From assembly GCA_017560095.1 (NCBI GenBank), contig JAFYOU010000040.1, positions 1 through 34,451 on the forward strand: DNA of 34,451 nucleotides, given 5' to 3'. The notes under the pieces are model-generated. The model had not been told where the DNA came from, ran no database searches, and saw nothing but the letters and a program-made list of their open reading frames with translations. Below, one piece after another: positions 1,776-33,116 of this stretch (positions within the stretch are counted from its first letter, which is position 1; every line of letters begins with the position of its first letter). Origin of the DNA: Candidatus Gastranaerophilales bacterium (lineage in GTDB: Bacteria; Cyanobacteriota; Vampirovibrionia; Gastranaerophilales; Gastranaerophilaceae). The position numbers and the translations under genes were made by a program.

Positions 1776-2764
1776 ACCTTTTTGTTATTTATTAATTGTT
1801 TTTTCGAAATTTTATCAGAAACCAATGTCGTAAATATTGGCATAAAACCATAATAAATAAGTGCAAAAATTACAGTAGGGCGAGCAACATTTAAACCTTC
1901 AAGATACTTAGATAATTTTGGATTATCAATATTTGCATTTTTGAAATTTTCAACAAAACTATTACCTAATTTTTGAATAATTTCATCAATAGCACATCCG
2001 CCAAAAATACTTATTACTGTAGATAAAATTTTGCTTATAATTAAAGGTTTTTTCTTATTTTCTTCGATTTTTTTCGAAGACGAAGTTGCAATCACACCAC
2101 CTGCGGTCAATAAAATATCAGTCATAACAGAAGCGTTTCTTGCTATATTTTTAGAATTTTTTGAATGCTTAATTGCAAAATTTTGTGCTGGTTCAGATTC
2201 AATTATTGAAGAAATTAAATTTGTTGCCAAATCACCTTTAAAACTTACGCTGTTTTTATAAGTTTCAAATCCTTGTTTTTCAAGACTATGCACTTCTTGC
2301 TCTTTTTGTTTATTAAGTAAACCCGCAATAATAGGAATTAAAGTAACGGTAGCAATAGATTTTGGAATCGCACTTAATAAATTAGAACCCAACTTAATTG
2401 ATTGAGTTAAAAAATCAAATTGCTTTTTAGAAAGATTTTTAAATGAATTATTTTTAAAAAGTTGATCTTGATTTTCTTTTATTTTGTTAACAGCACTTTC
2501 AATAGGCAAAGATATTCCAAGTGCAACAAGTAATTTTACAAAACCAGAGGCAATTGAATCTGCACTCAATATTTTTTTATTTTCCCTGTCTGCTTTTGGT
2601 GTCATAGAAATTGCAAGAGGTCTTAGTACAACTGCAGACAAAAAAGAAACTCCTGCAGCAAAACTTGCCCCATGATCTGCAATATGTTCTAAGCTTGATA
2701 GCAAAATTTTATTATTATATAACCCATTAAAATTTTGAGCATTTTTTATTTGATTAATCCTCAC
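1772..2764 (-). CDS. Hypothetical multi-spanning membrane protein, 330 aa
   Basis: I do not recognise a named family. The first residues, MRINQIKNAQNFNGLYNN, carry the NFNG version of an N-terminal motif seen in several proteins here. They precede a predicted membrane region with about six hydrophobic stretches: near residues 33-53, 72-90, 130-152, 213-228, 245-265 and 297-317. Two glycine/alanine-rich segments (HGASFAAGVSFLSAVV and TDILLTAGGVIATSS) may be packed helices. The start is GTG, sharing an intergenic strip with the divergent pnuC, and no Shine-Dalgarno sequence is visible. A small ORF overlaps its stop codon. Function unknown; the membrane location is inferred from hydrophobicity alone. 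Confidence 0.8.
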   Translation of the reverse strand: MRINQIKNAQNFNGLYNNKILLSSLEHIADHGASFAAGVSFLSAVVLRPLAISMTPKADRENKKILSADSIASGFVKLLVALGISLPIESAVNKIKENQDQLFKNNSFKNLSKKQFDFLTQSIKLGSNLLSAIPKSIATVTLIPIIAGLLNKQKEQEVHSLEKQGFETYKNSVSFKGDLATNLISSIIESEPAQNFAIKHSKNSKNIARNASVMTDILLTAGGVIATSSSKKIEENKKKPLIISKILSTVISIFGGCAIDEIIQKLGNSFVENFKNANIDNPKLSKYLEGLNVARPTVIFALIYYGFMPIFTTLVSDKISKKQLINNKKV

Positions 2765-2779
2765 ACTTTAAATTATAAT
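2750..2779 (+). promoter_or_regulatory. Sigma-70-type promoter for pnuC, apparently leaderless
   Basis: A -35 box TTGATT (2750-2755) is separated by 18 bases from a perfect -10 box TATAAT (2774-2779). Only six bases separate the -10 box from the ATG at 2786, so transcription should begin at or next to the start codon. The -10 region AATTATAATT is a perfect palindrome, so it could also serve the divergent gene, though no good -35 box is seen on that side. Confidence 0.6.
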
Positions 2780-2785
2780 TTAAAA

Positions 2786-4656: not shown

Positions 4657-4673
4657 TGAAACTCCACAATAAA

Positions 4674-4715
4674 AAAATATGTTTTATGCTTTAATATTAG
4701 CATAAAACATATTTT
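4674..4715 (-). terminator. 17-bp perfect hairpin after the pyrophosphatase gene
   Basis: AAAATATGTTTTATGCT (4674-4690) pairs perfectly with 4699-4715 across an 8-base loop. It lies 19 bases after the stop of the pyrophosphatase gene and before the next gene's RBS, and reads as a terminator on either strand because A and T runs flank both sides. Confidence 0.75.
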
Positions 4716-4733
4716 TATTTATTATGTTACATT

Positions 4734-6620
4734 TTAACTATACGCTAATTTGATAACTTCTTTGAAAAATGGTGCAATTTGTTCTTTTCTTGAAGCTACA
4801 TTTGGGATTGCCAATATATCTCTTTCTTCCGTTTTGGAATCAGTTCCTATTTTTGTAATAAAATCAGCAATTCGTTGCCCAAGCGGTACTTCTGCAATAG
4901 CAGATAATACCTCTTTATAGGTTTTACTTTCTTCGCCCTCTCGAACTTTGATTTTTTTCGCTAAAAAGTCGCTATCAGCTTTTTTTAATGCTTGTTTAAC
5001 TATTCTTTGCATTTTCTTAGATACAATTAAATATGAACATTTTTTTGCTCTATCTGTAACAATCACAACGGAGCCAAGAAGCTTCTTGTTGTTCTCATCA
5101 AATTCTTCAAGGGCTGTTTTTAGTTCTTTTTGTTTTTCCCTAAGGAAAACGTCAGCGTCTCCAAGCTTAGTTTGCGCAATTTGGATACTGCCATATTTAC
5201 CCATTTCTACAGTCTTAGAATCGTTTTTGCTTACTATATTGTAAGGAGATAAGTTTAAAACTTCAGAATCATTTTTAGACAATAATTCTTTTGCAAATTT
5301 GTCCGTATTTTTAATTCCTGCTTTTTTGGCTAATTCTTCTGCTGTATCAATATCATCTTGAGTTGTTGTAAGAGAAGTAAAATTATCCGTATCTGAAACA
5401 ATTGCGCACCATAAAAGACCTGCCATTTTTGATGGTAACTCAACTCTATTTGCCCAATATGCTTGTGCAACATTTGTTGCGTTTGCACCACAAGTACCAT
5501 ATTGCATTGTAATTCTTTCAGGTGGCTTAATACTCATTTTATGATGGTCGACAATTCCATATACTTGATCAATTGTAACACCATCCGGAGATTCTGAAAT
5601 ATTGTTATGATCAACCAAAATAAAATTATGTTTCTTTTCGGGAGCAAGAATTTCTTCCCTTGATACAAGACCCATAAACTTGTTATTTTCATCCAAAACT
5701 GGGAAAGATCCATATTTATATTTTTTTACAGTATTTAAAGCTTCATCTAAAGTTTGCGTTGCATTAAGAGAAACAACAGTTGGGCTCATTATTTTAGAAA
5801 CAGGAAGAGCTTGCTTTAATAAGCTTACGATTTGATATGTAGGAAATTCTGAACGCAAAATAACAACATTTTTCTCTTGCGCTAAACTTGCTACTTCATC
5901 TGAAACATCATCATCATAGGCAATAATTAACATTTTAGCACCTTTATTAATTGCCTCTTTTTGAATTTCTTCTCTATCTTCAACAATCACAACCGCATCT
6001 TGTAAATTAAGTCCACTAAACTTTTCCTTGGTACAAGTAGCTTCTACAATATTCCCATTTATAGTGTTTTTATCTAAAAACTCTTTATCACCTACCCTAA
6101 CCTCAGCCTCAATTAATTCTTGAACAGTACTAAAAGAAATATTATATTCTTTTAACTTTGATAAACAACCACCTTTGGATGTTTGCCTAACAAAAGCAGA
6201 TAAACTCTGCGAAGTAACCATACCAACAACATGATTATCATCATCAAGAACAGCCAAAGACTTAACTTTGTTATCATCTGTTACGTTAATAAAATCACGA
6301 ATAGTGGAGTTCTGCTTAACTGATGTTTCACTAAAACTCTTATCTTTCATTACTTCTGCAACAGTCATTCTTAAATCAGTTTTTATTGATGGACTTGAAA
6401 GACCAAAAGAACTAAGAGCAAATTCAGCTTCTCTGTTGATTTTTCCAGCTGCGACCGCCTCAAAAGTATGTCCCTTGCCTTTTTTTGCATTCTCGGCTAA
6501 ATAAGCTATTGCAACAGAAGAGGCAACAGAATCAAGATCAGGATTTTTGTGTCCCGTAATAAAATAATGAGCTCTAAAAGCAATATTATTGGTTGGATAT
6601 TTAAAAATTGGTTTTATCAT
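4734..6620 (-). CDS. ppaC: CBS-domain manganese-dependent inorganic pyrophosphatase (family II, DHH/DHHA2)
   Basis: 628 residues, in order: a DHH motif I TGHKNPDLDS (His24, Asp28, Asp30 as metal ligands), a CBS domain (~84-145), a DRTGG-like domain (~150-265), a second CBS domain (~276-327), then LVDHN (Asp337), the DHH triad (358-360), VSDTDNF (Asp410), TTTQDD and a DHHA2 domain with the substrate-binding SRKEQ (610-614). All expected catalytic residues are present. This is the regulated CBS-PPase layout, in which adenine nucleotides control hydrolysis of pyrophosphate. Unusually, about 18 extra residues precede motif I and contain N-N-I-A-F-R-A, the recurring N-terminal motif in this window. 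The SD sequence AGGTG lies inside an inverted repeat. Confidence 0.95.
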   Translation of the reverse strand: MIKPIFKYPTNNIAFRAHYFITGHKNPDLDSVASSVAIAYLAENAKKGKGHTFEAVAAGKINREAEFALSSFGLSSPSIKTDLRMTVAEVMKDKSFSETSVKQNSTIRDFINVTDDNKVKSLAVLDDDNHVVGMVTSQSLSAFVRQTSKGGCLSKLKEYNISFSTVQELIEAEVRVGDKEFLDKNTINGNIVEATCTKEKFSGLNLQDAVVIVEDREEIQKEAINKGAKMLIIAYDDDVSDEVASLAQEKNVVILRSEFPTYQIVSLLKQALPVSKIMSPTVVSLNATQTLDEALNTVKKYKYGSFPVLDENNKFMGLVSREEILAPEKKHNFILVDHNNISESPDGVTIDQVYGIVDHHKMSIKPPERITMQYGTCGANATNVAQAYWANRVELPSKMAGLLWCAIVSDTDNFTSLTTTQDDIDTAEELAKKAGIKNTDKFAKELLSKNDSEVLNLSPYNIVSKNDSKTVEMGKYGSIQIAQTKLGDADVFLREKQKELKTALEEFDENNKKLLGSVVIVTDRAKKCSYLIVSKKMQRIVKQALKKADSDFLAKKIKVREGEESKTYKEVLSAIAEVPLGQRIADFITKIGTDSKTEERDILAIPNVASRKEQIAPFFKEVIKLAYS

Positions 6621-6625
6621 TTCAA

Positions 6626-6650
6626 CACCTGCATTGTTTTAAAACAGGTG
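6626..6650 (-). promoter_or_regulatory. Inverted repeat that could mask the ppaC ribosome binding site
   Basis: CACCTG (6626-6631) and CAGGTG (6645-6650) are 13 bases apart, directly before the ppaC start codon. On the mRNA, the copy next to the start (CAGGTG) contains the only Shine-Dalgarno candidate, AGGTG, six bases before ATG. Folding would pair it. It could equally be a protein operator. Confidence 0.45.
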
Positions 6651-6758
6651 AAAATTTATTTTTGCTATTTATATTTATAAAAAATTATTATTTGTTATTT
6701 TAAATTTTTTTTATAAATATGCATATTTTAATACAGCAATATAATATATACCAAACAC

Positions 6759-9236: not shown

Positions 9237-9553
9237 ATATTAATAAAGTATTTTTTATAAAAAAAATTGCCATGAATTACATTTTATTTATAAAAAAACA
9301 AGTTATATTAAAGCAAAATTTTAATTGTGAAAATATATAACACATTCAATCACAATTATAGTACGACTTTTTACGACAGGACTATTAAAAACGTCTACCC
9401 GCCAAGCAAAGCTAATTGTACATCATAAAACGTTATTGCCTGATACTTAAATTTCAGTTATCCAATTTAAATATCAGACCATTAATGTGGCATTAATCAG
9501 CAAAACTCACAGTACCAATAGAGGTGTTGTTCAAAATCACAACTATTTGCAAC
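9237..9553. other. Intergenic region without a gene
   Basis: About 317 bases between the 825-aa gene start and the tRNA terminator. I find no protein-like frame. The half next to 9237 is extremely AT-rich and should hold the promoter of the 825-aa gene, but I could not place boxes with confidence. The only clear structure is the hairpin at 9440-9477. Confidence 0.6.
9440..9477. repeat. Imperfect inverted repeat in the intergenic region
   Basis: CTGATA-C-TTAAATT (9440-9453) pairs with AATTTAA-A-TATCAG (9464-9477): 13 of 14 positions pair, around a 10-base loop. There is no T run, so it is not an intrinsic terminator. It may be an operator or part of an untranslated RNA. Confidence 0.6.
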
Positions 9554-9580
9554 AAAAAAGAGAGCACTACTACTCTCTTT
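9554..9580 (-). terminator. Terminator after the CAT-anticodon tRNA
   Basis: On the minus strand AAAGAGAG and CTCTCTTT (9557-9564 with 9573-9580) form an 8-bp stem with an 8-base loop, followed by more Ts, directly downstream of the tRNA. Confidence 0.8.
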
Positions 9581-9582
9581 AA

Positions 9583-9657
<75 letters not shown>

Positions 9658-9715
9658 TTATGCTTATTTAATTTTAACAAATAATTAAATATTTTCAAGC
9701 AATAATTTACTTATC

Positions 9716-10630
9716 TTATTTATCAATATACTCGTTATCAATTTTTAAAATTCCTTTAATTAACATATGGGCCAAAATAAGCATATTTGAAGACAAATAA
9801 CCATCCGAAACAATCTTGAAATTTTGCACTCCTATTGCTGTGTGAGAAGTTTTTATTTCTTTAAAATCAAATGTTGCATATATAGTTGCTTCTTTCAATA
9901 AAACATTAATTATTCTTAAAAATTCGTCTTTCAAAAAAGTTTTCAGCGAAAAAACATCAACATAAAAATTGTTTTCAAATTCATTAATACAAATCAATAA
10001 ATTTGAAAAATTAATTGTTTCAATGAGAATGCTTAACTTTGATTTTTTAATTGCTTCTGCTTCATGTTCTTCTAACGTTTCATTATTTAAATTTTTATCA
10101 AAAACCGGCACATTTAAAGGAATATATAGAAGCAAAAATTCCCTAAGTGCATTCGCGCCATGTGAAGTATTTGCTTGAATAGCATTCAAAAAAACAAGTA
10201 CTTCTTTCAATTGTGCTGCATCTATTCCGGACTTTAAAGAAGATGAAATAGCTTGCATAATCCTAGATATTGCTTCTGTTGAATTTTGATTTATTAATTC
10301 AGACAAAGCTTTGACGTTAACAAGATTTTCAACCAATATTTTAACCAATTTAGAATTGATATTTTTATCATTCAGTTGATTCACAAATTTTTCAATTGAA
10401 TCCGGAAAATCAAATAATTTTTGCAAATATCTTAAAACAGTCTCATTATCCATTTTAGCTGCAAAAAAATCATACATGAAGTTGTGTTCAACTCTTAAAG
10501 AAGCAGCTTGTTGAATTTGGGGCTGAATTTGCGATTGAGTTTGCTGTAATAAATTTTGCGAATTATTAACAAGTCCAGCTTTTTGATTAGCTATATTATT
10601 TAAATTAAAGTTAACCGAATTAAATTCCAT
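9716..10630 (-). CDS. Hypothetical protein, 304 aa
   Basis: Not recognised. The first 45 residues are Asn/Gln-rich (NNSQNLLQQTQSQIQPQIQQ) and probably disordered. The rest is largely helical, with a distinct C-terminal part, IETINFSNLLICINEFENNFYVDVFS, that looks like a small alpha/beta domain. No signal peptide or membrane helix. The Gln-rich head followed by a compact C-terminal domain, near a flagellar rod operon, recalls FliK-type hook-length proteins, but no diagnostic motif supports this. Residues 6-10, VNFNL, partly match the N-terminal motif found in other proteins here. It is followed by a tRNA on the same strand. Confidence 0.75.
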   Translation of the reverse strand: MEFNSVNFNLNNIANQKAGLVNNSQNLLQQTQSQIQPQIQQAASLRVEHNFMYDFFAAKMDNETVLRYLQKLFDFPDSIEKFVNQLNDKNINSKLVKILVENLVNVKALSELINQNSTEAISRIMQAISSSLKSGIDAAQLKEVLVFLNAIQANTSHGANALREFLLLYIPLNVPVFDKNLNNETLEEHEAEAIKKSKLSILIETINFSNLLICINEFENNFYVDVFSLKTFLKDEFLRIINVLLKEATIYATFDFKEIKTSHTAIGVQNFKIVSDGYLSSNMLILAHMLIKGILKIDNEYIDK

Positions 10631-10802
10631 AATAGTATCTTAATTTAAAAATTTTATTTGGCATGCTTTTTCAAATAATTATTAAAAATAAAATTTTATT
10701 TTTAATAATTATTAAGTTTTTTTAAGCAGGTAAAACCATTACCATACCAAGATTTTCTATTATACGACACTTGTAAAATATTAATTAGTTGCTTAATTTG
10801 CA

Positions 10803-10831
10803 TTGCCTAAAATATTGGTTTAAAATATAAG
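10803..10831 (+). promoter_or_regulatory. Candidate promoter for an intergenic plus-strand RNA
   Basis: TTGCCT (10803-10808), a 17-base spacer, then TATAAG (10826-10831). No plus-strand gene follows, but an intrinsic terminator does about 50 bases later. Confidence 0.35.
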
Positions 10832-10837
10832 TGTAGA

Positions 10838-10911
10838 AGTTAAAAACTTTGGTTTATTATAAATAATTTTTTAATGGGGAAATGGGGGTTTTGATAACCT
10901 CCCTTTTTTTC
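10838..10911 (+). ncRNA. Candidate small RNA of about 75 nt
   Basis: Starts just after the promoter at 10803-10831 and ends in a hairpin, GGGGGTT with AACCTCC (7 bp including one G-U) followed by CTTTTTTT. The hairpin has a T run only on the plus strand, yet both neighbouring genes are on the minus strand, so it does not serve them. The transcript would carry purine-rich GGGGAAATGGGGG, able to pair with C/U-rich or SD-complementary targets. Purely a prediction. Confidence 0.35.
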
Positions 10912-10912
10912 C

Positions 10913-12580
10913 TCATCTTTCAGACTTAAGTATTTTTTCGCTTCTTATTAATTGAGCTTGATATCTTTTTACCAGTTCAACATCGCCAATTAAAACAGAA
11001 ATATCATAAGCTTGTTTTTTGTAGTTGATTTCGCCCTGATTTATTTCAATTGCTTCTTTTGCATAAAGCAATGCATTTTCATATTCTTTTAATCCGACAT
11101 ACGCTCTTGCCATTTGCGAATAATATTTAGCTTCAAGTGGATTAAATTTAATTGCAGTATATATTACTTTTTTGGCTTCATCAAATTGTTCTATATCATT
11201 TAAAATCAATCCTTTAAAATAATAAGTCTCAGGATTATTTTTATCTAATTTAAAGTACTCTTCAATCGAAACAAGTGCTTTTTCATAATTTTTCATGCGA
11301 TAAAAAATCCGCGCCAATGAATTATATATATTTGGACAATTTTGATATATCTTACTAAAATCATCAATCAAATCAAGAGCTTCATTATATTTTTTATCAT
11401 CAATCAATAAATCAATTATCTCTAATGTGTAATAAATTGAATCAGGATAATTCTTAAGCCCTTTTTTGTATACATCAATTGCTTTATTATACATTTTTAA
11501 TTCTTTGTAGCAAAAAGCAAGTGTATCGATTAAAATTCCATTTTCTTGTTCTTCTTTAAAAAACAATTCCAATTTTTGAATAGCGCTTGAAATATCTGTT
11601 TTTTTTATATTAACAACTTGTGCTAAAATTTGAGCTTTAGAGTACAACTTGGAATCCTTATTTATAGATTCAAGATTTAAAAGCGCTTTAGATAATTCAT
11701 TCTTTTTAATTAAAATCCAAGCTGAAAGAAAATATTTTTCATCAATATTTTCAAGATTATTTTTAGCTACAGATAGATTAATTGATTTTTTTAGAGAAAC
11801 TAACGCTTCATTAAACCAAGAAATATCTATATAAGTCTTTGCCAAATCCAAATAAAAATCATGTTCATCATTATCAAGCTCAATAGCCTTTAAATATAGC
11901 TCTATTGCTCTAGAATAATTTTTCTTACTTGCTTCAATCCTAGCAAGCAAATACAATGCTAAAGCGTTATCTTCGTCAATATTTAAACAATAAGGTATTA
12001 CTTTATCATAATTACCTTTATCAAATTCAATTAGAGCTAATCCTATATTTGCATCTACATGGCCCAAGTCAAGTTCAAGAATTTTCTTTAAAATAACTTC
12101 TTTTTTACTTTCATCGATTCCTGAAATTAAATATAAGATATCTACATCCATCTTAATTTGCTCATCAAGCATATTAAAAACTTCAATTGCATCTTGCTTT
12201 TTATCCATAGCAATAAGGGTTTTTATATGATTATAAAAGCTTTTTGAGCTTTTTGCATTTTCACACATACCAAGTGCAACCCTTAAAGCTTTATTTAATT
12301 GATTAGTTTTAAAATAAATTTCAAAACACTGTTGAGCACAATATTCGTGATTTGGATTCATTGATAAAGCTTTTTGAAAATGTTCCAAAGCTCTATCAAA
12401 ATTATTCATTAATACAGATAAATCACCTAATTGTGATAAAATTTCAATACTATCTTGCGTGTCGTTTTGAAATTCTAAAACTTTATAAAGCATCTCAATT
12501 GCGCTTTTATATTTTTTTTGATTCCGTAATTCAAAAGATTTTTTTATTAATTCAATTTTTTCTTGTTCATGATTTCCCAT
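10913..12580 (-). CDS. TPR-repeat protein, 555 aa
   Basis: Made almost entirely of 34-residue tetratricopeptide repeats, with typical W/L-G-Y-A-F-A-P spacing. Examples are ALEHFQKALSMNPNHEYC, ALYLLARIEASKKNYSRAIELY, SIYYTLEIIDLLIDDKKYNEAL and AKYYSQMARAYVGLKEYENA. I count around a dozen repeats, and no other domain, signal peptide or membrane helix. It is therefore a cytoplasmic protein-protein interaction scaffold. It is transcribed divergently from the flagellar rod operon, so a role in flagellar assembly is possible but unproven. There is no Shine-Dalgarno sequence; instead a strong promoter sits directly before the ATG, suggesting a leaderless mRNA. Confidence 0.92.
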   Translation of the reverse strand: MGNHEQEKIELIKKSFELRNQKKYKSAIEMLYKVLEFQNDTQDSIEILSQLGDLSVLMNNFDRALEHFQKALSMNPNHEYCAQQCFEIYFKTNQLNKALRVALGMCENAKSSKSFYNHIKTLIAMDKKQDAIEVFNMLDEQIKMDVDILYLISGIDESKKEVILKKILELDLGHVDANIGLALIEFDKGNYDKVIPYCLNIDEDNALALYLLARIEASKKNYSRAIELYLKAIELDNDEHDFYLDLAKTYIDISWFNEALVSLKKSINLSVAKNNLENIDEKYFLSAWILIKKNELSKALLNLESINKDSKLYSKAQILAQVVNIKKTDISSAIQKLELFFKEEQENGILIDTLAFCYKELKMYNKAIDVYKKGLKNYPDSIYYTLEIIDLLIDDKKYNEALDLIDDFSKIYQNCPNIYNSLARIFYRMKNYEKALVSIEEYFKLDKNNPETYYFKGLILNDIEQFDEAKKVIYTAIKFNPLEAKYYSQMARAYVGLKEYENALLYAKEAIEINQGEINYKKQAYDISVLIGDVELVKRYQAQLIRSEKILKSER

Positions 12581-12587
12581 AAAAGCT

Positions 12588-12616
12588 ATTATATTTTATT
12601 TTTTTTCTTAATTCAA
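12588..12616 (-). promoter_or_regulatory. Promoter of the TPR gene, apparently leaderless
   Basis: On the minus strand TTGAAT (12611-12616), 17 bases, TATAAT (12588-12593), then only seven bases to the ATG at 12580. The transcript should start at the initiation codon. Confidence 0.6.
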
Positions 12617-12695
12617 TCATAGATACATTTGACTTTTTAAAAATCAACCTTAAACGTAAATCATATGATGTATTTTTTTCTCTTCCGATAAAGAT

Positions 12696-12723
12696 TAAAG
12701 TACTTATGTCGTTGTCCTATAAA
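12696..12723 (+). promoter_or_regulatory. Possible sigma-28-like promoter of the flagellar rod operon
   Basis: TAAAGTAC (12696-12703) and CCTATAAA (12716-12723) are spaced much like the flagellar sigma factor consensus (TAAA ... GCCGATAA). They end 13 bases before the first gene's ATG. The match is partial and the sigma factor of this lineage is not characterised here. Confidence 0.35.
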
Positions 12724-12736
12724 AAAGAGGTATTCA

Positions 12737-13435
12737 ATGAAACTAGCAGCAGGAATAAACTTTGACGCATCAGGAATTGCTCAATCCATAAACGCTATGC
12801 AAATGAGCATGGATATTATGGGTATATTCAGCGAAAATGTTGTTGGTTTTGATAAAGTAGGATATCAAAGAAAAGAAGCTGTTATTTCATCTTTTGCGGA
12901 ATACATTGGAACAAATGCACTGTCTCACAGCACAGATGAACAAGTTGGGCGCTTAGCTTTAACACAAAATCCTCTCGATATCGCATTATCCGACAAAGGC
13001 TACTTTCAAGTTTTAAACAAGGATGGAAGTATAGAATTAACAAGAGATGGAAGATTTTGCATGAGCAAAAATGGTGAAATCATAACTCAAACAGGTCAAA
13101 AGGTTTTATCTAGTGGCGGATTGCCTATAGTTTTACCAGTAGTTCCAGATGGTATTGATAAAATCAAAATTGGACTTGATGGAAAAATTGGCGTTTTTGA
13201 TGAAAAAACAAGAGGCATGATTCCAGCAGGAACAATTGGTGTTGTATCAACTGATGGCAATCTAATTACATCAAATTGTGTTCGTCAAGGATATGTTGAA
13301 TCTTCAAATGTTCAATTAGAAAAAGAATATATGGAAGTTGCAAATTACAAAAGAAGCTTTGAAGCAAACAGACAAATGTTTAGACTTCAAAACAACAATC
13401 TTTCATCTGCAATTTCAAGGTTAGGACAAGTATAA
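12737..13435 (+). CDS. Flagellar basal-body rod protein, FlgF/FlgG family (first copy)
   Basis: 232 residues. It has the rod-family N-terminal helix (QSINAMQMSMDIMGIFSENVVG, then FDKVGYQR in place of ANVNTxGYK), the core NPLDIALSDKGYFQV followed by ELTRDGRF, and the conserved C-terminal helix RQGYVESSNVQLEKEYMEVA ... EANRQMF. It would be part of the proximal or distal rod that crosses the periplasm and is exported by the flagellar type III apparatus without a cleaved signal. The C-terminal tail is closest to FlgG. An AGAGG Shine-Dalgarno sequence precedes the ATG. It heads a four-gene operon. Confidence 0.9.
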   Translation: MKLAAGINFDASGIAQSINAMQMSMDIMGIFSENVVGFDKVGYQRKEAVISSFAEYIGTNALSHSTDEQVGRLALTQNPLDIALSDKGYFQVLNKDGSIELTRDGRFCMSKNGEIITQTGQKVLSSGGLPIVLPVVPDGIDKIKIGLDGKIGVFDEKTRGMIPAGTIGVVSTDGNLITSNCVRQGYVESSNVQLEKEYMEVANYKRSFEANRQMFRLQNNNLSSAISRLGQV

Positions 13436-13445
13436 AGGGTAATTT

Positions 13446-14162
13446 ATGGCATATAACTTACAAGGAATTATTAGAAAAGCTACAACAAATATGTCCGTTG
13501 AATTTGACAGACTTGCTTATATTACCCAAAATTTTGCAAATGTAAATACTAACGGATACAAAGCAGTTAGATTCGAAGACGTAATTGATGCAGACGGCTC
13601 AGTTCATGGAGTTGAAAGAGTAAACACAAAAACAGGAGAATACTTAATTACAAACAACCCGCTAGATATCGCACTTCAAGGAGCAGGCTATATTCCTGTT
13701 ACAACGCCATCTGGAGAAATAAGATACACAAGGGATGGGGGCTTTATGAAAGATAAAGACGGCTATCTTATAACAAAAACTGGAGATTTAGTTGGCTCTG
13801 GAATTAAAATTGATGGAAACTGTGAAAAAATCGAAATAAAAGCAAATGGGGATGTTTATACATATAAAAGAATTTTTGATAAACCTGATTATGTAGGTAC
13901 AATTCCCGTTGTACAATTTGAAAACCCTGAAGGTTTAAAAGATGTTGGCGCTAATGAATTTGTTGCAACTGAAACTTCAGGAAAAATGAGATTAATAGAA
14001 GAACATGATTACATAAAACAATATGGAATAGAACGTGCAAATGTTGATGTAATATCAGACGTGTATACCGTTTCAAGAATTAATGCTTCCATTTTAGCGA
14101 CAAATTCTTTAATGAAAGCAATTAACACTATGTATGATGAGGCAATTAACTTAACTCAATAA
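13446..14162 (+). CDS. Flagellar basal-body rod protein, FlgF/FlgG family (second copy)
   Basis: 238 residues with the canonical motif NFANVNTNGYKAVRFED near residue 30, then NNPLDIALQGAGYIPV and EIRYTRDGGFMKDKDGYLITKTG. The C-terminal part has RANVDVISDVYTVSRINA, a variant of the usual SNV..V.EMV.MI helix. It lies ten bases after the first rod gene with its own AAAGGG Shine-Dalgarno sequence. With the first copy it probably fills the FlgF and FlgG positions, but which is which cannot be settled by eye because both are shortened and divergent compared with enterobacterial proteins. Confidence 0.9.
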   Translation: MAYNLQGIIRKATTNMSVEFDRLAYITQNFANVNTNGYKAVRFEDVIDADGSVHGVERVNTKTGEYLITNNPLDIALQGAGYIPVTTPSGEIRYTRDGGFMKDKDGYLITKTGDLVGSGIKIDGNCEKIEIKANGDVYTYKRIFDKPDYVGTIPVVQFENPEGLKDVGANEFVATETSGKMRLIEEHDYIKQYGIERANVDVISDVYTVSRINASILATNSLMKAINTMYDEAINLTQ

Positions 14163-14173
14163 AGGAGTAAAAA

Positions 14174-14536
14174 ATGGGCTTAGTTCCAATGCATTTATTA
14201 AACGAACCGCAAAAAATGCTTAATATGATATCTCAAAGACAAGAGTGTCTTTCTGATAACATTGCAAATATGCACACAAAAGGCTACAAAAGAAAAGATG
14301 TTGATTTTTCGCAATATTTGAACAGCGGAATTTCATCTCGAATTGAAGCAAACCTAGTTGAAAAATACGGCCCAAGTCCAATAGCTTCCGGTACATACGG
14401 TGGTCAAAATATTACAACAGAAGAAGAATTAGCAAAAATGCAAGAAAATTACATGCTCTACAATGTGGCAGTAAGGCGCTTATCGAGTACAATAACAGAA
14501 ATAAAAACAGCATTAAATGTTTCAGCTAACGGGTAA
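14174..14536 (+). CDS. flgB: Flagellar basal-body rod protein FlgB
   Basis: 120 residues, the usual size for FlgB. The N-terminal helix ends with SDNIANMHTKGYKRKDVDF, the rod signature placed as in FlgB, and the C-terminal helix EELAKMQENYMLYNVAVRRL corresponds to the FlgB tail (E...M..N...Y......). FlgB forms the first layer of the proximal rod above the MS ring. It is translated from its own strong Shine-Dalgarno sequence (AAAGGAG). Here it follows the FlgF/G-type genes, whereas most bacteria place flgB and flgC first. Confidence 0.9.
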   Translation: MGLVPMHLLNEPQKMLNMISQRQECLSDNIANMHTKGYKRKDVDFSQYLNSGISSRIEANLVEKYGPSPIASGTYGGQNITTEEELAKMQENYMLYNVAVRRLSSTITEIKTALNVSANG

Positions 14537-14554
14537 ATAAAGAGGTAAAATTCA

Positions 14555-14989
14555 ATGGGCATAATGAACGCATTTAAAATAGGTGGCGAAGGTTTAACAG
14601 TACATGGCAAACGTGTTGAAATTGCTGCCAAAAACATCGCAAATATTGATACTCCTAATTACACAAGAAAAATACCAATTATATCATCCAACCAAGATCA
14701 AAGTTTTGCAACAGTCTTATCATCAATGGGCGTTGGAGCACTAGCGGGATCATCCTCTATGGGAGGCGTTAACTTTGATGGAATAGTTGAAGACCCAACA
14801 CCTGGAGCAAAAATATACAAACCAGGACATCCAGATGCAGATGAAAATGGATACATAAGGACATCAAACACAAATGCAATGGTTGACATTGCAGATGCCA
14901 CTATCGCACAAAGAGCATTTGAAGCTTCACTTGGTGTAATGTCTATTTCTAAAGCAATGGCTGTAGCATCTTTAGAAATTGGCAAATAA
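14555..14989 (+). CDS. flgC: Flagellar basal-body rod protein FlgC
   Basis: 144 residues. It begins with a helix leading into AAKNIANIDTPNYTRKIPI. A FlgC-specific centre follows: DPTPGAKIYKPGHPDADENG (compare D.sP...Y.PgHPdAd..G), then SNTNAMVDIADATIAQRAFE and a final helix. FlgC stacks with FlgB in the proximal rod. It is the last gene of the operon, and fliE, the usual neighbour, is not adjacent. The stop overlaps the 3' end of the convergent gene by 18 bases, and the operon's likely terminator lies inside that gene. Confidence 0.95.
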   Translation: MGIMNAFKIGGEGLTVHGKRVEIAAKNIANIDTPNYTRKIPIISSNQDQSFATVLSSMGVGALAGSSSMGGVNFDGIVEDPTPGAKIYKPGHPDADENGYIRTSNTNAMVDIADATIAQRAFEASLGVMSISKAMAVASLEIGK

Positions 14990-15433
14990 TTTAATCAATT
15001 CTTTAAATAACTTTAATATGAATTCTATAATTTGTTGCAAGCTATAGAATTCATTTGTTTTAACAGGCTCATTTGGTGGCAAAATAGACCATAATGAAAT
15101 ATTATATTGTTCACACAATGGCTTAATTTTATTAAAATACTTATAATCAGAGTTTTTTTCAATTATCAAAACAATCCCAGCATTTTTTCCAGACATTCTA
15201 GAATAATGTAAACTTTGACCAATTGCCTCAGCCCATTTTGAAGCAAAATCAAATTCAACAGCATGAGTTTGAGTTAAACAATCAATTCTTGTATTATCAA
15301 TTAACTTTACTTCACTTCTACCATTTTGTTCTTTGCACCACATATTTTGATAATATTTTTCAGGATATAAATGTTTAGCATCTGCAACGGATACAAAAAA
15401 TAAAAAAAAGAAAACAATTCTCAAAGCCATCAT
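14972..15433 (-). CDS. Exported small protein of a nuclease-like conserved family, 153 aa
   Basis: A signal peptide occupies the first ~19 residues (MMALRIVFFFLFFVSVADA). The mature part has a conserved pattern I associate with a widespread uncharacterised family: YYQNMWCKEQNGRSEVKL, then DNTRIDCLTQTHAVEFDFA, then KWAEAIGQSLHY and AGIVLIIE. The order D...E-x-D-x-A-x-K followed by an EAIGQ helix resembles a PD-(D/E)xK nuclease-like fold, but catalysis is not established. It ends by overlapping flgC on the opposite strand, and a hairpin that should terminate flgC transcription lies within its 3' coding region. Function uncertain; export and family membership are fairly supported. Confidence 0.75.
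   Translation of the reverse strand: MMALRIVFFFLFFVSVADAKHLYPEKYYQNMWCKEQNGRSEVKLIDNTRIDCLTQTHAVEFDFASKWAEAIGQSLHYSRMSGKNAGIVLIIEKNSDYKYFNKIKPLCEQYNISLWSILPPNEPVKTNEFYSLQQIIEFILKLFKELIKLFANF
15018..15061 (+). terminator. Likely terminator of the flagellar operon, inside the convergent gene
   Basis: ATGAATTCTATA (15018-15029) pairs perfectly with TATAGAATTCAT (15043-15054), followed by TTGTTTT. It begins 29 bases after the flgC stop and lies in the coding sequence of the opposite-strand 153-aa gene. Confidence 0.6.
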
Positions 15434-15462
15434 AAATACAGTTTATCACCAACAAAACAAAT

Positions 15463-15491
15463 AAAAAAACCGCCTTAGATAAGGCGGTTTT
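15463..15491 (-). terminator. Strong terminator ending the ribosomal cluster after rplR
   Basis: On the minus strand AAAACCGCCTTA pairs with TAAGGCGGTTTT and is followed by more Ts. It lies 16 bases after the rplR stop and separates the ribosomal cluster from the next gene. Confidence 0.92.
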
Positions 15492-15507
15492 AAGTATTTG
15501 CAATTTA

Positions 15508-15870
15508 CTAGAATTGAAGACCAGCTTCTCTTGCAGCATCTGCTAAAGCAGCAACTCTTCCGTGGAATAAGAAACCACCACGGTCAAATACAACGCCTTC
15601 AATACCTTTAGCTAATGCTTTTTTTGCAACATCCGCACCAACAACTTTAGCAGCTTCGATGTTTCCACCGTGTTTTAAGCCTAATTCTTTCACTTTTGAA
15701 GATGAAGAAACTAAAGTTACACCATTTACATCATCAATAACTTGAGCATAAATGTGTTTTGTTGAACGATATACAGCTAATCTTGGCCATTGAGCATCGC
15801 CTGAAATTTTAAGACGTACTCTTTGGTGTCTTTTTCTTGTTTGTTCTTTTCTGTTGATTTGTTTTAACAT
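15508..15870 (-). CDS. rplR: Large-subunit ribosomal protein L18 (uL18)
   Basis: 120 residues, normal length. The basic N-terminus ([19 protein letters not shown]), the core [18 protein letters not shown] and the end [24 protein letters not shown] are all typical of L18, which binds 5S rRNA in the central protuberance. It is the last gene of this cluster: rpsE, rpmD, rplO and secY, which normally follow, are absent, and a strong terminator comes instead. It is separated from rplF by an unusually long 206-base spacer. Confidence 0.97.
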
Positions 15871-16034
15871 TTTTCTTACCTTTCACCAAAACCAGTTCCG
15901 CTTAGACGGCTGATTTATATTGGCAACTTTACTAATTGTAATACATTCCGCCTGTCGGTATTTCGTCAAACTGGCTACTACTAACGTTGTCGCTCGTTGA
16001 CTCAATTATCCTACGGCGGTCATCGATAGCTTCA

Positions 16035-16057
16035 ATTCAAAACTCAATGTTTTGAAT
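16035..16057 (-). repeat. 9-bp perfect hairpin in the long rplF-rplR spacer
   Basis: ATTCAAAAC and GTTTTGAAT flank a 5-base loop, about 20 bases after the rplF stop. No T run follows, so it may slow decay or act as a processing or attenuation site rather than end transcription. No ORF is found in the spacer. Confidence 0.6.
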
Positions 16058-16076
16058 TTTCGCTCCGGCTTACGCC

Positions 16077-16616
16077 CTATTTTTTACCAGCTTTACCAGC
16101 TTTACGAGCAATATATTCGCCTTCGTACTTAACACCTTTGCCTTTATAAGGTTCTGGTGGTCTTTTTGAACGAATTAACGCTGCAACGTCACCTACCATT
16201 TGTTTGTTAGTACCAGAAACTGTAACTTTTGTGTTAGCTTCTACAGCAATTGTGATACCAGCAGGTGGTTCGATGACAACTGGATGAGAATAGCCCAAAG
16301 AAAGATTGATTGCAGTTCCTTGCATAGCAGCACGATAACCTACACCAACGATTTCTAGCTTTTTCTCAAATGGTGTATGAACACCGTTAATAGCATTTGA
16401 AATTAAAGTTCTAAATAAACCATGTAAGCTTCTAGATTTTCTATCATCAGCCTTACGATTTACCTCAACTTCATTTTCTTTAATTACTACTTCAATTTCA
16501 GAAGGAAATTCAACTGTTTCAGTACCTTTTGGCCCTTTTGCAGTTAAAACATTACCTTCAACTTTTACTTCAACTCCAGCTGGAATTGAAATTGGTAATT
16601 TACCGATTCTTGACAT
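16077..16616 (-). CDS. rplF: Large-subunit ribosomal protein L6 (uL6)
   Basis: 179 residues with the two-domain L6 layout. It starts MSRIGKLPISIPAGVEVKVEG and ends with the conserved RNA-binding tail RRPPEPYKGKGVKYEGEYIARKAGK (read here as KRPPEPYKGKGVKY). L6 binds 23S rRNA near the factor-binding site. It is translated from a GGAGAAAG Shine-Dalgarno sequence and follows rpsH by 79 bases in the detached downstream part of the cluster. Confidence 0.97.
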   Translation of the reverse strand: MSRIGKLPISIPAGVEVKVEGNVLTAKGPKGTETVEFPSEIEVVIKENEVEVNRKADDRKSRSLHGLFRTLISNAINGVHTPFEKKLEIVGVGYRAAMQGTAINLSLGYSHPVVIEPPAGITIAVEANTKVTVSGTNKQMVGDVAALIRSKRPPEPYKGKGVKYEGEYIARKAGKAGKK

Positions 16617-16695
16617 TTTCTTTCTCCTTTTGCTTTAAAAGCGGGAACGCATCGTATTTAAACGATTTAACCCTTAGTAATAACAAATTGCTACA

Positions 16696-17091
16696 TTACC
16701 AAACGTAGCAAAGTACTTCACCACCAAGCTTGTTAGCACGAGCAGCTTTTTCAGTCATTAAACCTTTAGAAGTTGAAATAACTGCGATACCCATACCATC
16801 AAAAACTCTTGGCATATTTTTAGCTTTAGAATATACTCTTAAGCCTGGTTTTGATACTCTTTTAAGACCAGTGATTACACTTTGTCCGTTTAAGTATTTT
16901 AAAGTTACATTGATAAATTTAAAACCATCTTTTTCTTCAACGGTGTAGCTATCAACATAACCTTCTGCTTGAAGAACTTTAATTAATTCTTCTTTAAGGT
17001 TTGACGCAGGCATAGAAACTGATTCATGTTTAACGATTTTAGCGTTTCTAATGCGAGTTAAAGCGTCAGCGATTGGATCATTGATTGTCAT
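16696..17091 (-). CDS. rpsH: Small-subunit ribosomal protein S8 (uS8)
   Basis: 131 residues. It begins NDPIADALTRIRNAK and ends with the signature KLGGEVLCYVW, and also has the STSKGLMT loop that binds 16S rRNA helix 21. In most bacteria S8 directly follows S14. Here 1.9 kb with two opposite-strand genes separates it from rpsN, so rpsH-rplF-rplR must have their own promoter in 17092-17287. S8 is the classical autogenous regulator of the spc operon in E. coli; whether that holds here is unknown. Confidence 0.97.
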   Translation of the reverse strand: MTINDPIADALTRIRNAKIVKHESVSMPASNLKEELIKVLQAEGYVDSYTVEEKDGFKFINVTLKYLNGQSVITGLKRVSKPGLRVYSKAKNMPRVFDGMGIAVISTSKGLMTEKAARANKLGGEVLCYVW

Positions 17092-17109
17092 GATTTTCCT
17101 TTCTACTTG

Positions 17110-17154
17110 CGAGAATTAATCTCGTAGTTTAGCTAAGTACGCACACAACTGTGC
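17110..17154 (-). promoter_or_regulatory. Two small hairpins in the rpsH leader
   Basis: CGAGA-ATTAA-TCTCG (17110-17124) and GCACA-CAAC-TGTGC (17141-17154), both perfect 5-bp stems, lie between the rpsH start and its expected promoter. They could form a ribosomal-protein binding leader, but the link is only positional. Confidence 0.4.
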
Positions 17155-17287
17155 AAAACTAATGATATTTCAAACATGTTTTTTATGCAAATTTTTATGA
17201 AGAATTGTTAAACATTTTAAAATTTATTATCAATTATTATTTTTATCAGTTTTATACAACTAAAACATTTTCAAAAGGAAAAATAAC

Positions 17288-18523
17288 ATGAGAATTACCC
17301 CGATTAATTACAATTATTTAAACAATAATTATAAAATTAATAATAATATCAAAAATAAACATATAGTACATTTTACTGGAGATAAAGCTGAAAATACAGA
17401 TGGAGAAGTCTTCGCAAAAGTAATGGCAGGCTGTGCGGCATTTGCAGCTGTTGTTACAACAATAGGGTGTTTTGGTTATAATTATTTAGCAGGGCAAAGC
17501 AATCAAGCACAAGAAAATCCCAATACGCCTTTTAATGACACAAGTTTAGTTCAATTTGTCCCATCAAATGAAAGAACTCCTGAATATCATAACGTTAAAA
17601 GCGGTGATACATTATCAAAAATTGTAAAACACTATGCGCAACTTCCAGATGATTATCCAAACGAAATGCTTGAACCATACTATTTAATTCTTGAAAATGA
17701 TAATCCTAATGCCTGGGAAGACAGAAATATAATTAAAGCAGGTATAACTATAAGGGTAGATGGTATTTGCCCAGAAAATGTTTATCTTGATGGTATCGAT
17801 CCAGCAGCAAAAGCAGACGAAACCGAAGAAAATGATATTAGATACGAAAAAGTAACAATAAATGAGTTGACATTTACATTTGATATTGGAACAGTTTCAA
17901 AAGAATTTCTCGGAAGATACGAAGGACGAGAAAATGGAAAATTTAAAACTATTGATAAAACATTGTCTGGAGACATTATAGTTACTAATTATCTTGGTTC
18001 CACTCCCAAAGATGGCGTCAAAAATGAAATAACTTACAATAAAGAAGGTCAAATTATTAAATATGGAGAACGGGACCCAAAAGGAGAAAGGTATTGGAAA
18101 TATTTTGTAACATACGAATACACTGGTGATACACTAATTGAAACATTAAGCCCAGATAGAGCAATTAGTGATTTTTATAGAATTACAACAAAATATGACC
18201 GAGAAGAAGATATTGTCTTTTTGAAAGAATTTTCAAATGACGAAAAAGTTGTTGCAAGGGTCGATTTTATTTCAGGCATAGCTGAAATTGGCGGAGAAAC
18301 TTGGATATTTGATGAAGGCACATTTAAATATAATAAAACCGATGATGAAATTGGATATTATAGCGGAACTATTAATGGACAACGTGTGATTATCGAACCT
18401 TCTAAATCTGGATTTTCAGTTCAATTTTTTGCAGATGGTGAAGTAGAAACAGTATTAGAATTCAATACAGACGGAGAAAAAATTACTCCAAAAGGCGAAG
18501 GGATTTGGCCTTGGCAACGATAA
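17288..18523 (+). CDS. LysM-domain membrane protein, 411 aa, inserted in the ribosomal cluster
   Basis: An Asn/Tyr-rich N-terminus carries the motif H-I-V-H-F-T-G (25-31). One transmembrane helix follows (~46-68), then a LysM domain (~99-157: YHNVKSGDTLSKIVKHY ... LENDNPNAWEDRN ... AGITIRV), expected to bind peptidoglycan. Residues ~180-411 form a beta-rich tail with repeated YD-like hairpins such as YNKEGQIIKYGERD and FNTDGEKITPKG. The protein thus probably sits in the inner membrane with its LysM domain in the periplasm. Shine-Dalgarno AAAAGG precedes the ATG. It lies on the strand opposite to the ribosomal genes on both sides, between rpsN and rpsH, and is followed by the 118-aa gene. Confidence 0.88.
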   Translation: MRITPINYNYLNNNYKINNNIKNKHIVHFTGDKAENTDGEVFAKVMAGCAAFAAVVTTIGCFGYNYLAGQSNQAQENPNTPFNDTSLVQFVPSNERTPEYHNVKSGDTLSKIVKHYAQLPDDYPNEMLEPYYLILENDNPNAWEDRNIIKAGITIRVDGICPENVYLDGIDPAAKADETEENDIRYEKVTINELTFTFDIGTVSKEFLGRYEGRENGKFKTIDKTLSGDIIVTNYLGSTPKDGVKNEITYNKEGQIIKYGERDPKGERYWKYFVTYEYTGDTLIETLSPDRAISDFYRITTKYDREEDIVFLKEFSNDEKVVARVDFISGIAEIGGETWIFDEGTFKYNKTDDEIGYYSGTINGQRVIIEPSKSGFSVQFFADGEVETVLEFNTDGEKITPKGEGIWPWQR

Positions 18524-18573: not shown

Positions 18574-18930
18574 ATGCAACCTATTAGTTTTGGCGCTATG
18601 CTACGCATAAAAGGAACCCCAGCAGAATTGTGGGAACAAAAAGGCGAAGATAATTATAAAAAAACTGGAACATATGTAGAAGAATCCATATATATCAACC
18701 CAGATCAAGTTACTAGGGTAGAAACTCAAATAACCCGAGAAGATGTATACCATAATGATGGATGCTGTATGGGTATGCTTCGTGGCATAGTTATAGGAAA
18801 AGGTGGTGCAATTATTCATCTATCAGATGGTGAAGAAATAGAATTAGATAGCCCCGCAGAGAAAGTTATCGATGCACTATATGAAGCACAACAAGCAACA
18901 GATAGACCTTATATTGATTTTACAGCATAA
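18574..18930 (+). CDS. Hypothetical protein, 118 aa
   Basis: Not recognised. It starts MQPISFGAMLRIKGTPAELW, so the I-S-F-G-A form of the recurring N-terminal motif lies right after the initiator. The rest is a small alpha/beta protein: YINPDQVTRVETQITREDVY, a G-rich turn GMLRGIVIGKGGAIIHL, then SDGEEIELDSPAEKVIDALYEA. A Cys-Cys pair precedes the turn. No signal peptide or membrane helix. The pattern 'residue-wise beta hairpin then SPAEKVIDAL' looks like a small regulatory or adaptor domain. It follows the LysM gene by 50 bases with its own AAAGGAAA Shine-Dalgarno sequence and ends at a bidirectional terminator, so the two form one operon. Confidence 0.8.
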   Translation: MQPISFGAMLRIKGTPAELWEQKGEDNYKKTGTYVEESIYINPDQVTRVETQITREDVYHNDGCCMGMLRGIVIGKGGAIIHLSDGEEIELDSPAEKVIDALYEAQQATDRPYIDFTA

Positions 18931-30711: not shown

Positions 30712-31689
30712 TTATTTTGAAAGCCTCCAAACATTTTCCATATGTTCACTAGTTCTATTTAATGGCTCAAATCCAAATTCTTTAAAAACTTCTCCTACAA
30801 TATCTATATTCGGCATTTGCAAAGCTTCTTCTTCTCCCAATACAAATATGCCACCAGGATTTAAATTTTCTTTAACATTTTTTGCAATAGTTCTTACTAT
30901 TTCATCCAAATTTTTTTTAGGTATTCTCTGCATTCTGACACATGAATTGACAGTTGTTAAATGATACATGGCGTTAGAAAAAGTGATTACGTCTGCTTTT
31001 TTACCACCAGTAACACCAGAAAGATTCAAAATATCACCTACCTGAAAAATACAGTTTTCAAATTTTCCATTTCTGGCTTTTATTATTTTGCCATCATATT
31101 TTGGCATTGGGATTCTGAATATATTTTCTGTACACCAACGTTTCGCTTTTAAAAATAAAGACTCTTGCTCACAATAAACCTCAGGCGTAACTTCAAAAAA
31201 TTCATCAAATAACTTTTTTTGCTCCAACTGTTCGGAAGTTAAAGGTTTTTTAGAAGCAAAACACAAAAATGAATCCCCAAGGGAAGATGAATTTTCCATT
31301 AAAAGCTTTCCAGTATCAGCCTGTTCTATTATTTTTTCAGATATATCAAATCCTAAAATAGAAAGTCTTGATTTTAATGAATCTAAAAGCATTGAATAAG
31401 TAAACACTTCTTCACCCGAAGAGCAAGCACCAACGACCATCTTAACATCAGGTTTATTAGAAAAATTCTCAAAAATATACTCACGTACAAAATTCTTAGT
31501 TTGAATATCTCTAAAAAATGCCGTTTCATGTATTAAACGCAATATACCACTTTTTTTCGGCATTTTTTCAAAACGAAAATGTCCTGTAAATGAAACTGTA
31601 TCATAAGATGAACTAAAACTTTTGCACTCATTAGCACACACTGTGGTTTTATATAATTGAGTTTTTTGAGTTGTTTGCAATATATACAT
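30712..31689 (-). CDS. CheR-like SAM-dependent methyltransferase with an atypical N-terminus
   Basis: 325 residues. Residues 55-61, ETAFFRD, then MVVGACSSGEEVFTYSMLL (84-102) and LGFDISEKIIEQADTGK form the CheR catalytic region (usually ETSFFRd, ..GCSSGEEpYS.., a-DIs...l..A..G). C-terminal VLGEEEALQMPNID is the last part of the fold. CheR methylates glutamates of chemoreceptors. The usual N-terminal helical domain is largely replaced by ~45 unrelated residues with T-V-S-F-T-G-H-F (31-38). No chemoreceptor or other che gene is in the window, so its substrate may be something else. Confidence 0.88.
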   Translation of the reverse strand: MYILQTTQKTQLYKTTVCANECKSFSSSYDTVSFTGHFRFEKMPKKSGILRLIHETAFFRDIQTKNFVREYIFENFSNKPDVKMVVGACSSGEEVFTYSMLLDSLKSRLSILGFDISEKIIEQADTGKLLMENSSSLGDSFLCFASKKPLTSEQLEQKKLFDEFFEVTPEVYCEQESLFLKAKRWCTENIFRIPMPKYDGKIIKARNGKFENCIFQVGDILNLSGVTGGKKADVITFSNAMYHLTTVNSCVRMQRIPKKNLDEIVRTIAKNVKENLNPGGIFVLGEEEALQMPNIDIVGEVFKEFGFEPLNRTSEHMENVWRLSK

Positions 31690-32930: not shown

Positions 32931-33116
32931 ATGATTCCAAGACTTTCATCAAATGTTTCATTTAAGGCAAACGAGATTGGTTCAGCTCGAGAAACATACG
33001 AGACTCTAATGGCTAACAATAACAAAATTGCACAAACACAAAGCAATATGGCTGCCAAATTTATGAACCAAGTTCCAATGCAAGGAACAGCTCAAAAACT
33101 TGATATTATTGCTTAA
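32931..33116 (+). CDS. Small protein of 61 aa with the N-terminal motif VSFKA
   Basis: It starts MIPRLSSNVSFKANEIGSA, where V-S-F-K-A (9-13) matches the motif found near the N-terminus of several proteins here. The remainder is helical and polar (ARETYETLMANNNKIAQTQS then NMAAKFMNQVPMQG). A strong Shine-Dalgarno sequence, AAGGAG, is seven bases before the ATG, and a hairpin follows within the 3' end of the convergent gene. Not recognised; no signal or membrane segment. With nothing but the motif plus one helix, it could be a minimal carrier or partner of the tag. Confidence 0.75.
   Translation: MIPRLSSNVSFKANEIGSARETYETLMANNNKIAQTQSNMAAKFMNQVPMQGTAQKLDIIA

Follow-up and report, generated by a model that had tools for sequence, protein, structure and literature searches.

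A two-block N-terminal peptide shared by unrelated proteins of Gastranaerophilales, a possible docking or sorting label

Unrelated proteins in the order Gastranaerophilales carry the same kind of N-terminal peptide, here called the tag, which is conserved in several families, occurs in all six genomes of the order that we scored and sits on proteins without Sec-type starts. As defined from orthologues, it consists of a start block, approximately M-[KNQRI]-[IV]-x-[PSN]-[IV], a linker of variable length, and an end block [IV]-[SNH]-F-[KTSGRNC]-[GAS]. Judged from the sequences, tags would mark roughly one to five percent of the proteins of this bacterium, irrespective of the body of the protein. 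We propose, at about even confidence, that the tag serves as a short linear label for docking or sorting, which acts in the cytoplasm via a putative receptor.

The window, i.e. the whole stretch of DNA analyzed, comprises 34,451 nucleotides of contig JAFYOU010000040.1 of a Candidatus Gastranaerophilales bacterium. A first-pass annotation had named six peptides of the form hydrophobic-x-F-x-(G/A) near the N-termini of unrelated proteins, and all six are present where it placed them. Its description lacked the start block (M-[KNQR]-I-x-P-I) and the mid-protein copy in the 330-aa family. The idea of a single signal appended to the N-termini of unrelated bodies is supported by enrichment in held-out genomes, by orthologue conservation in all six cases and by near-absence from the other families of the class that were sampled. 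The features are:

2234..2248, minus strand: second motif copy of the 330-aa protein, VSFKG at residues 173-177, in the linker that joins its halves (24/24; low pLDDT)
2723..2764, minus strand: tag of the 330-aa helical protein, residues 1-14, MRINQIKNAQNFNG (F-x-[GS] in 21/24 aligned)
6570..6620, minus strand: tag of the CBS/DRTGG/DHH pyrophosphatase, residues 1-17, MIKPIFKYPTNNIAFRA (congeneric orthologues tagged)
17288..17380, plus strand: tag of the LysM protein, residues 1-31, MRITPINYN...VHFTG (4/4 orthologues tagged)
18574..18597, plus strand: tag of the 118-aa protein, residues 1-8, MQPISFGA (single orthologue found, start MQPVSFGAMLRI)
31582..31689, minus strand: tag of the CheR-like methyltransferase, residues 1-36, ending VSFTG (conservation and low pLDDT)
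32931..32969, plus strand: tag of the 61-aa protein, residues 1-13, MIPRLSSNVSFKA (ribosome-binding site; F-x-[AGS] in orthologues)
32970..33116, plus strand: remainder of the 61-aa protein, C-terminus QGTAQKLDIIA (similar end in most orthologues)

Occurrence of the tag against chance and across the class

The genome to which the window belongs (G000; 58 contigs, 2.07 Mb) was sampled to about one third, at first 0.61 Mb with the window included and later 0.67 Mb, and 518 proteins were scored. Genes were called with a simple caller, in which coding score and ribosome-binding site determined the choice of start. Alternatives as far as 60 residues upstream were also considered, with the same start choice applied to the shuffled control.

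The pattern suggested by the first-pass annotation, [IVN]xFx[GA] within the N-terminal 45 residues, occurs in 38 of 462 proteins compared to a shuffled mean of 22 (maximum 35 in 300 shuffles). As its internal rates are also just slightly below the N-terminal rate, the expression is too loose to be informative alone, and it was retained as a baseline only. If the pattern is tightened to [IV][NSTHQ]F[KTGRNS][GA], which was done after the window had been seen, 10 of 462 proteins match versus 1.4 in shuffled sequences (maximum 6), and the density is 0.48 per 1000 positions N-terminally versus 0.00-0.15 further in. A slightly wider strict pattern gave 14/465 in the own sample, yet 0/157 in G008, 0/55 in G034 and 4/94 in G111. 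These uneven results led to the adoption of a model of both blocks, which prefers Ser, His or Asn before the Phe, Cys, Lys, Gly, Arg, Thr or Ser after it, and then Gly, Ala or Ser. The linker is acid-poor, rich in Asn, Gln, Ser, Pro and Tyr, and poor in Asp, Glu, Gly, Leu and Trp.

As a fairer test, the held-out model, trained on 13 tags from other genera, matches 12 of the 518 G000 proteins with a score of at least 8, compared to 0.19% of shuffled sequences and 0.05% of internal-Met windows. This test is not perfectly blind, since the form of the model was fixed after the window and the orthologues had been seen, and the tags from other genomes that served for training had been selected with a first model exposed to all genomes. 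Three of the 12 matches lie in the window; outside it 9/475 remain. Among the window proteins the held-out scores are 19.2 (LysM), 15.4 (CheR-like), 10.4 (118-aa), 4.3 (61-aa) and below 4 (pyrophosphatase), while the 330-aa protein was unscored, its GTG start being absent from the candidate starts. With the full model, which is circular, all six score between 10 and 24, and the own genome yields 27/518 as an upper figure.

Two high-scoring proteins, an Era-like GTPase (L146, sequence read by eye) and a DuOB protein (L058, also among the 27), were rejected as native starts of known families. They were left in for the full-model and held-out counts, and were removed before the counts of Sec-type starts, internal density and Cys. 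The 43 tagged proteins kept include doubtful ones, for example L123:3103 with its putative Phe inside a hydrophobic segment, L062 (FPY) and L034 (FQE). In Pfam and NCBIfam no family above its curated cut-off spans a tag, DuOB in the dropped protein excepted. The match INFDA in the first flagellar rod protein scores 2.7 and is thus probably due to chance, as had been supposed from the start.

Across six genomes of the order the held-out model finds 24 matches in 1322 proteins (G000 12/518, G008 3/180, G147 3/258, G099 4/169, and G034 1/105 and G030 1/92, which are little informative singly), with controls of 0.00-0.22% for shuffled sequences and 0.00-0.33% for internal-Met windows. Six genomes from other families of the class give 1/470 pooled (G111 1/96, G112 0/106, G117 0/104, G125 0/48, G123 0/46, G114 0/70; the last three scored with the full model, whose training set contained no outgroups). 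The difference between the two groups has a Fisher p of 0.005, pooled from three scoring runs. In the outgroup genomes measured for it, G+C is higher (0.43-0.50 vs 0.26-0.37 in the order), so that composition differs. The sole match in G111 is probably a Sec-type protein (L117:2565). The anticipated restriction to the lineage shows as near-absence of the tag from the other families sampled.

A possible reading of these data is that the peptides have no common function and reflect A-rich start codons, disordered tails rich in Asn and Lys, and chance occurrences of F-x-G. The barely enriched loose pattern and the G+C-richer outgroups are in line with it, as are the weak unbiased residue-pair counts (FxG z 3.3 and FxA 0.0, neither of them top-ranked; IxP z 5.7). 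Against it stands the held-out enrichment, which was obtained versus composition-preserving shuffles, and the behavior of the central residue: in the first 60 residues Phe gives 8 matches, whereas Tyr, Leu and Ile give 0, 1 and 0 (further swaps: Met 1, Val 1, Trp 0, Ala 1, Lys 2, Glu 0). We regard this reading as already disfavoured and give it hardly any credit. Over 1033 proteins the core motif has a frequency of 0.40 per 1000 within the N-terminal 45 residues, compared to 0.18 in the central part and 0.12 within the C-terminal 45. Inside proteins the Phe form is not specific to the order (0.69 per 1000 Phe vs 0.84 in outgroups), tagged and untagged proteins do not differ in how densely the strict motif occurs internally (0.22 vs 0.23 per 1000), and extra motif copies inside tails (8/43; 4.2 expected, maximum 11) are in the range of chance.

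Conservation and structural setting in the window families

The 61-aa open reading frame (32931-33116) is preceded by a ribosome-binding site and has matches in 25 of the 29 genomes of the genus, own included. Among the 25 loci fetched one (L018) was unreadable; all 24 readable copies, own included, possess Phe with Ala, Gly or Ser at +2. Both Phe codons are used (TTT 16, TTC 7, in 23 copies) and the +2 residue is encoded by several Ala, Gly and Ser codons, which argues for selection on the protein and speaks against a lack of common function. Most orthologues terminate in PMQG..QKLDVIA or similar, and the protein shares the end QKLDI[IM]A with a separate 60-aa protein (L143:2484-2666). Immediately upstream of the start, GTGTTGTAAGGAG is present in several orthologues.

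In the 330-aa family (window 1772-2764) the N-terminal F-x-[GS] is kept in 21 of 24 aligned sequences, own included, whereas L200, L201 and L207 have lost it or carry a changed form; the GTG start is backed by orthologues starting at the same place. The internal copy (K-N-S-V-S-F-K-G) shows F-x-[GA] in all 24, a constancy equally hard to reconcile with chance. In the structural model pLDDT falls below 50 only at residues 1-9 and 153-176, so that the N-terminal NFNG (11-14) itself has moderate confidence in the model (mean 71 over its block). The two halves of the protein, each preceded by the motif, may have arisen by tandem duplication. This is only suggested by the weak alignment of the halves, whose score of 55 exceeds the shuffled mean of 37 and stays below the shuffled maximum of 60. 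The two motif copies are separated by three hydrophobic peaks, and if all of these cross the membrane the copies would come to lie on opposite sides. A fold search of the model against the PDB returned nothing at E 0.001. Similar internal copies were noticed in an M16 peptidase (residue 515) and a nucleotidyltransferase (residue 192).

The CheR-like alignment took 10 of 13 genes from four families of the order (window copy plus nine), the remaining L088, L092 and L094 having F-x-[AS] by eye. Met1 and Phe34 are invariant in 10/10 and are the sole invariant columns before residue 58, while the linker is scrambled. In L089 the aligned Phe lies in AAFER, and a better motif, VSFKN, is found at residues 8-12; the invariance of the Phe is thus partly the choice of the aligner. 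Residues 1-36 are the only stretch of the model with pLDDT below 50 (about 30, with no helix modelled, in one model only). The tag ends with F34-T-G and the first strand starts from residue 39. In this model the peptide lies outside the family fold, as the first reading of the sequence had it: it is predicted to be disordered and stops where the fold starts.

The same claim had been made for the pyrophosphatase, and the homologues are in line with it. All three congeneric orthologues are tagged (MINPITKFPRYNISFCS, MINLISSKYNLSFLG, MINPISKFSISFLG) before the fold, as is the window copy, and two homologues from Moranbacteria begin at the fold with MSK[IL]IIVGHKNPD, without a tag. At 1e-40 the protein has no match in 78 other genomes, none of them congeneric, and on this ground was likely gained from outside. 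In the LysM protein a hydrophobic segment (about residues 41-59) follows behind the tag.

Apart from their tags, the genes for the 330-aa protein, the pyrophosphatase and the LysM protein share one contig in G012 (C8) as well as in the window (1772-18523), and the first two lie on one contig in G018 (C14). Viral contigs contained no relatives of the CheR-like and 330-aa families. An 825-aa protein of the window (6759-9236) shows no Pfam domain above cut-off and has, by eye, apparent repeats (FKTIK...ELTPVAG-like).

Carriers and candidate functions of the tag

No Pfam match at E 0.01 was found for 23 of the 40 tagged proteins scanned. Those with a match include a glycosyltransferase, a helicase, HTH and endonuclease-like proteins, an M16 peptidase, a ribonucleotide reductase barrel, a 5'-nucleotidase, a nucleotidyltransferase, CheR-like and EF-hand proteins; in closer terms, the carriers include a starch-synthase-like transferase, a DEAD helicase and HNH-like proteins. 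Outside the window, the helicase orthologues possess F-x-[GSH] in 7/7 genomes with a match. For the starch-synthase-like transferase a tag-like start is found in 6/6 genomes with a match (score 2.7 in G012), and F-x-[GAS] in three of these only (G000, G093, G103).

A Sec-like start, i.e. a hydrophobic segment beginning within about the first 30 residues, occurs in none of the 43 tagged proteins compared to 205 of 1261 untagged ones (Fisher p = 0.0006). Transmembrane-like segments are absent from 35 of the 43; in four (LysM, L056:11745, L140:918, L075:1617) such a segment follows soon after the tag, in three it lies far downstream, and in L123 it overlaps the putative motif. A 629-aa carrier has, by eye, a lipobox-like LTGC behind its tag, where weak matches to lipoprotein models are also found. 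The Cys content of tagged soluble proteins (1.21%, 0.97-1.47), next to 1.34% (1.26-1.41) for untagged soluble and 0.92% (0.71-1.16) for Sec-like proteins, is not decisive.

The proposed label could work as follows. A disordered N-terminal tail would hold two weak anchors, the start block M-[KNQR]-[IV]-x-P-[IV] and the end block [IV]-[SNH]-F-x-[GAS], with the polar, acid-poor linker between them. A putative receptor made by the order would bind the tag in the cytoplasm and might bring unrelated proteins together at a single site or on a common scaffold, among them soluble enzymes, membrane-anchored proteins with the anchor behind the tag, and tiny helical proteins. We infer the receptor, the destination and the cytoplasmic site of action; the disorder of the tag is predicted, fully in the CheR-like model and partially in the 330-aa model.

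The first-pass annotation had offered a sorting tag, a docking peptide or a processing site, and of these docking or sorting fits best and processing less well. An argument for docking or sorting is the held-out enrichment on unrelated carriers, together with orthologues that keep the tag while the linker scrambles. The CheR-like protein, with disorder and a fold starting just behind the tag, also favors a docking label, as do the lack of Sec-like starts and the pyrophosphatase tag, which the two Moranbacteria homologues do not have. The second conserved copy, in a disordered linker inside the 330-aa protein, is more easily understood in a docking peptide than in an obligate N-terminal signal. 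As expected of docking motifs, the conserved residues sit in tails or linkers that are predicted to be disordered and lie beside folds. Several observations point the other way. Given its start block, the tag would be read from the N-terminus, a requirement of export signals but not of docking peptides; the pyrophosphatase motif abuts the fold and leaves little room for a bulky receptor; and in the 330-aa protein NFNG is modelled with moderate confidence, and membrane peaks separate its two copies.

A different proposal, which we consider unlikely, is that the tail is a secretion signal for flagellar-type (type III) export and that tagged proteins leave the cell. The tail is start-anchored, polar and acid-poor, and the missing Sec-like starts fit as well. 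An export gate is at hand: one or more FlhA-type (FHIPEP) matches were obtained in each of the 58 genomes of the order searched, also where the copy closest to the family model is missing (e.g. G029, G030, G031, G034, G035). PMC4040986 reports full flagellar gene sets in 3 of 9 Gastranaerophilales genomes only. A protein similar to the cytoplasmic domain of FlhA alone was present in 12/12 family genomes examined; outside the order such matches are partial only among those listed (G114, G136, G138; weaker in G113, G118, G131). In addition, five of the six window families are patchy in the genus (2, 3, 4, 5 and 17 of 29 genomes, at differing thresholds), and effectors are often patchy in distribution.

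Export is opposed by the outgroups G112, G117, G125, G123 and G114, which own a full-length FlhA-type gate and yet have no tags in the stretches read. The single FHIPEP match in G030 and G031 implies that the short FlhA copy is missing there, and G030 nonetheless has a tagged protein. As a receptor of the tag, the short FlhA-like protein is a weak candidate, since these two genomes lack it. Furthermore, the rod proteins of the window (named by eye) lack the tag, a conserved motif copy sits inside the 330-aa family, although most carriers have the motif at the N-terminus, and helicase and nucleotidyltransferase families are among the carriers. The chaperone CesT was found in none of 16 genomes, with control genomes likewise without a match. 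The own genome has three FHIPEP (FlhA/SctV) relatives (C54:96406-98391, C21:49998-51974, C51:46108-47139). One is near fliP, fliQ, fliR and flhB, the G008 counterpart of another is near flhB, fliE and fliF (genes named by eye), and the third, of 486 aa, matches the cytoplasmic part of FlhA only.

Processing would mean that a protease of the lineage cuts at or near F-x-[GA] and thereby frees a propeptide or splits domains. In both the CheR-like protein and the pyrophosphatase the fold begins right after the motif, which is compatible with this, and so are the copies between or before domains in the 330-aa family, the M16 peptidase and the nucleotidyltransferase. A cut site alone leaves the start block unexplained, and we judge this role to be rather improbable. 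Still more doubtful is a role of the peptide as N-terminal degron or as regulatory tag recognized by a Clp-, Lon- or FtsH-type protease or adaptor. The N-terminal position and the disorder, on soluble and some membrane proteins, would suit it; the conserved internal copy of the 330-aa family would not, and selection for such a tag on an apparently acquired enzyme is hard to explain.

Returning to the docking or sorting label, we tentatively suggest, somewhat short of even confidence, that the order uses a proteome-scale address label which directs dozens of unrelated proteins, soluble as well as membrane ones, to a single site defined by a receptor, and that newly acquired enzymes receive this label too. 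A sorting or docking code would imply that common uncultured gut bacteria possess a so far undescribed receptor and perhaps also a compartment or scaffold that is equally undescribed. If the tag were an export signal instead, many secreted proteins of these bacteria would be listed in one stroke. With either reading, many proteins annotated without function in Gastranaerophilales, the non-photosynthetic gut relatives of cyanobacteria, gain a shared testable property.

Comparison with known targeting signals

We know of no signal of this two-block form, and the literature searched, which covered few subscription papers, contained no description of such a motif. To our knowledge bacteria do not put one N-terminal address peptide on some percent of their proteins outside secretion routes, and a cytoplasmic sorting code in bacteria would have no known counterpart. 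The tag looks like a docking motif.

The N-terminal signals of type III secretion are disordered and polar, sit on unrelated bodies and have no shared consensus. The tag is similar in its N-terminal, polar and predicted disordered tail on unrelated bodies, but differs in the conserved [IV]xFx[GAS] block and the internal copy. YSIRK-G/S motifs and extended signal peptide regions resemble it as extra N-terminal motifs adding an address to unrelated proteins; they belong to Sec signal peptides, whereas none of the 43 tagged proteins is Sec-like. Organelle transit peptides likewise have N-terminal tails that are polar and poor in acidic residues, with a short motif directly ahead of the mature fold, in contrast to which the host here is a bacterium without a known importing organelle. 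Encapsulation peptides of microcompartments, which are amphipathic helices, and the cargo peptides of encapsulins bring soluble cargo into shells. Like the tag they are short peptides added to unrelated enzymes; the tail described here differs in that the single model to cover it in full predicts no structure for it, and in that some of its carriers have membrane segments.
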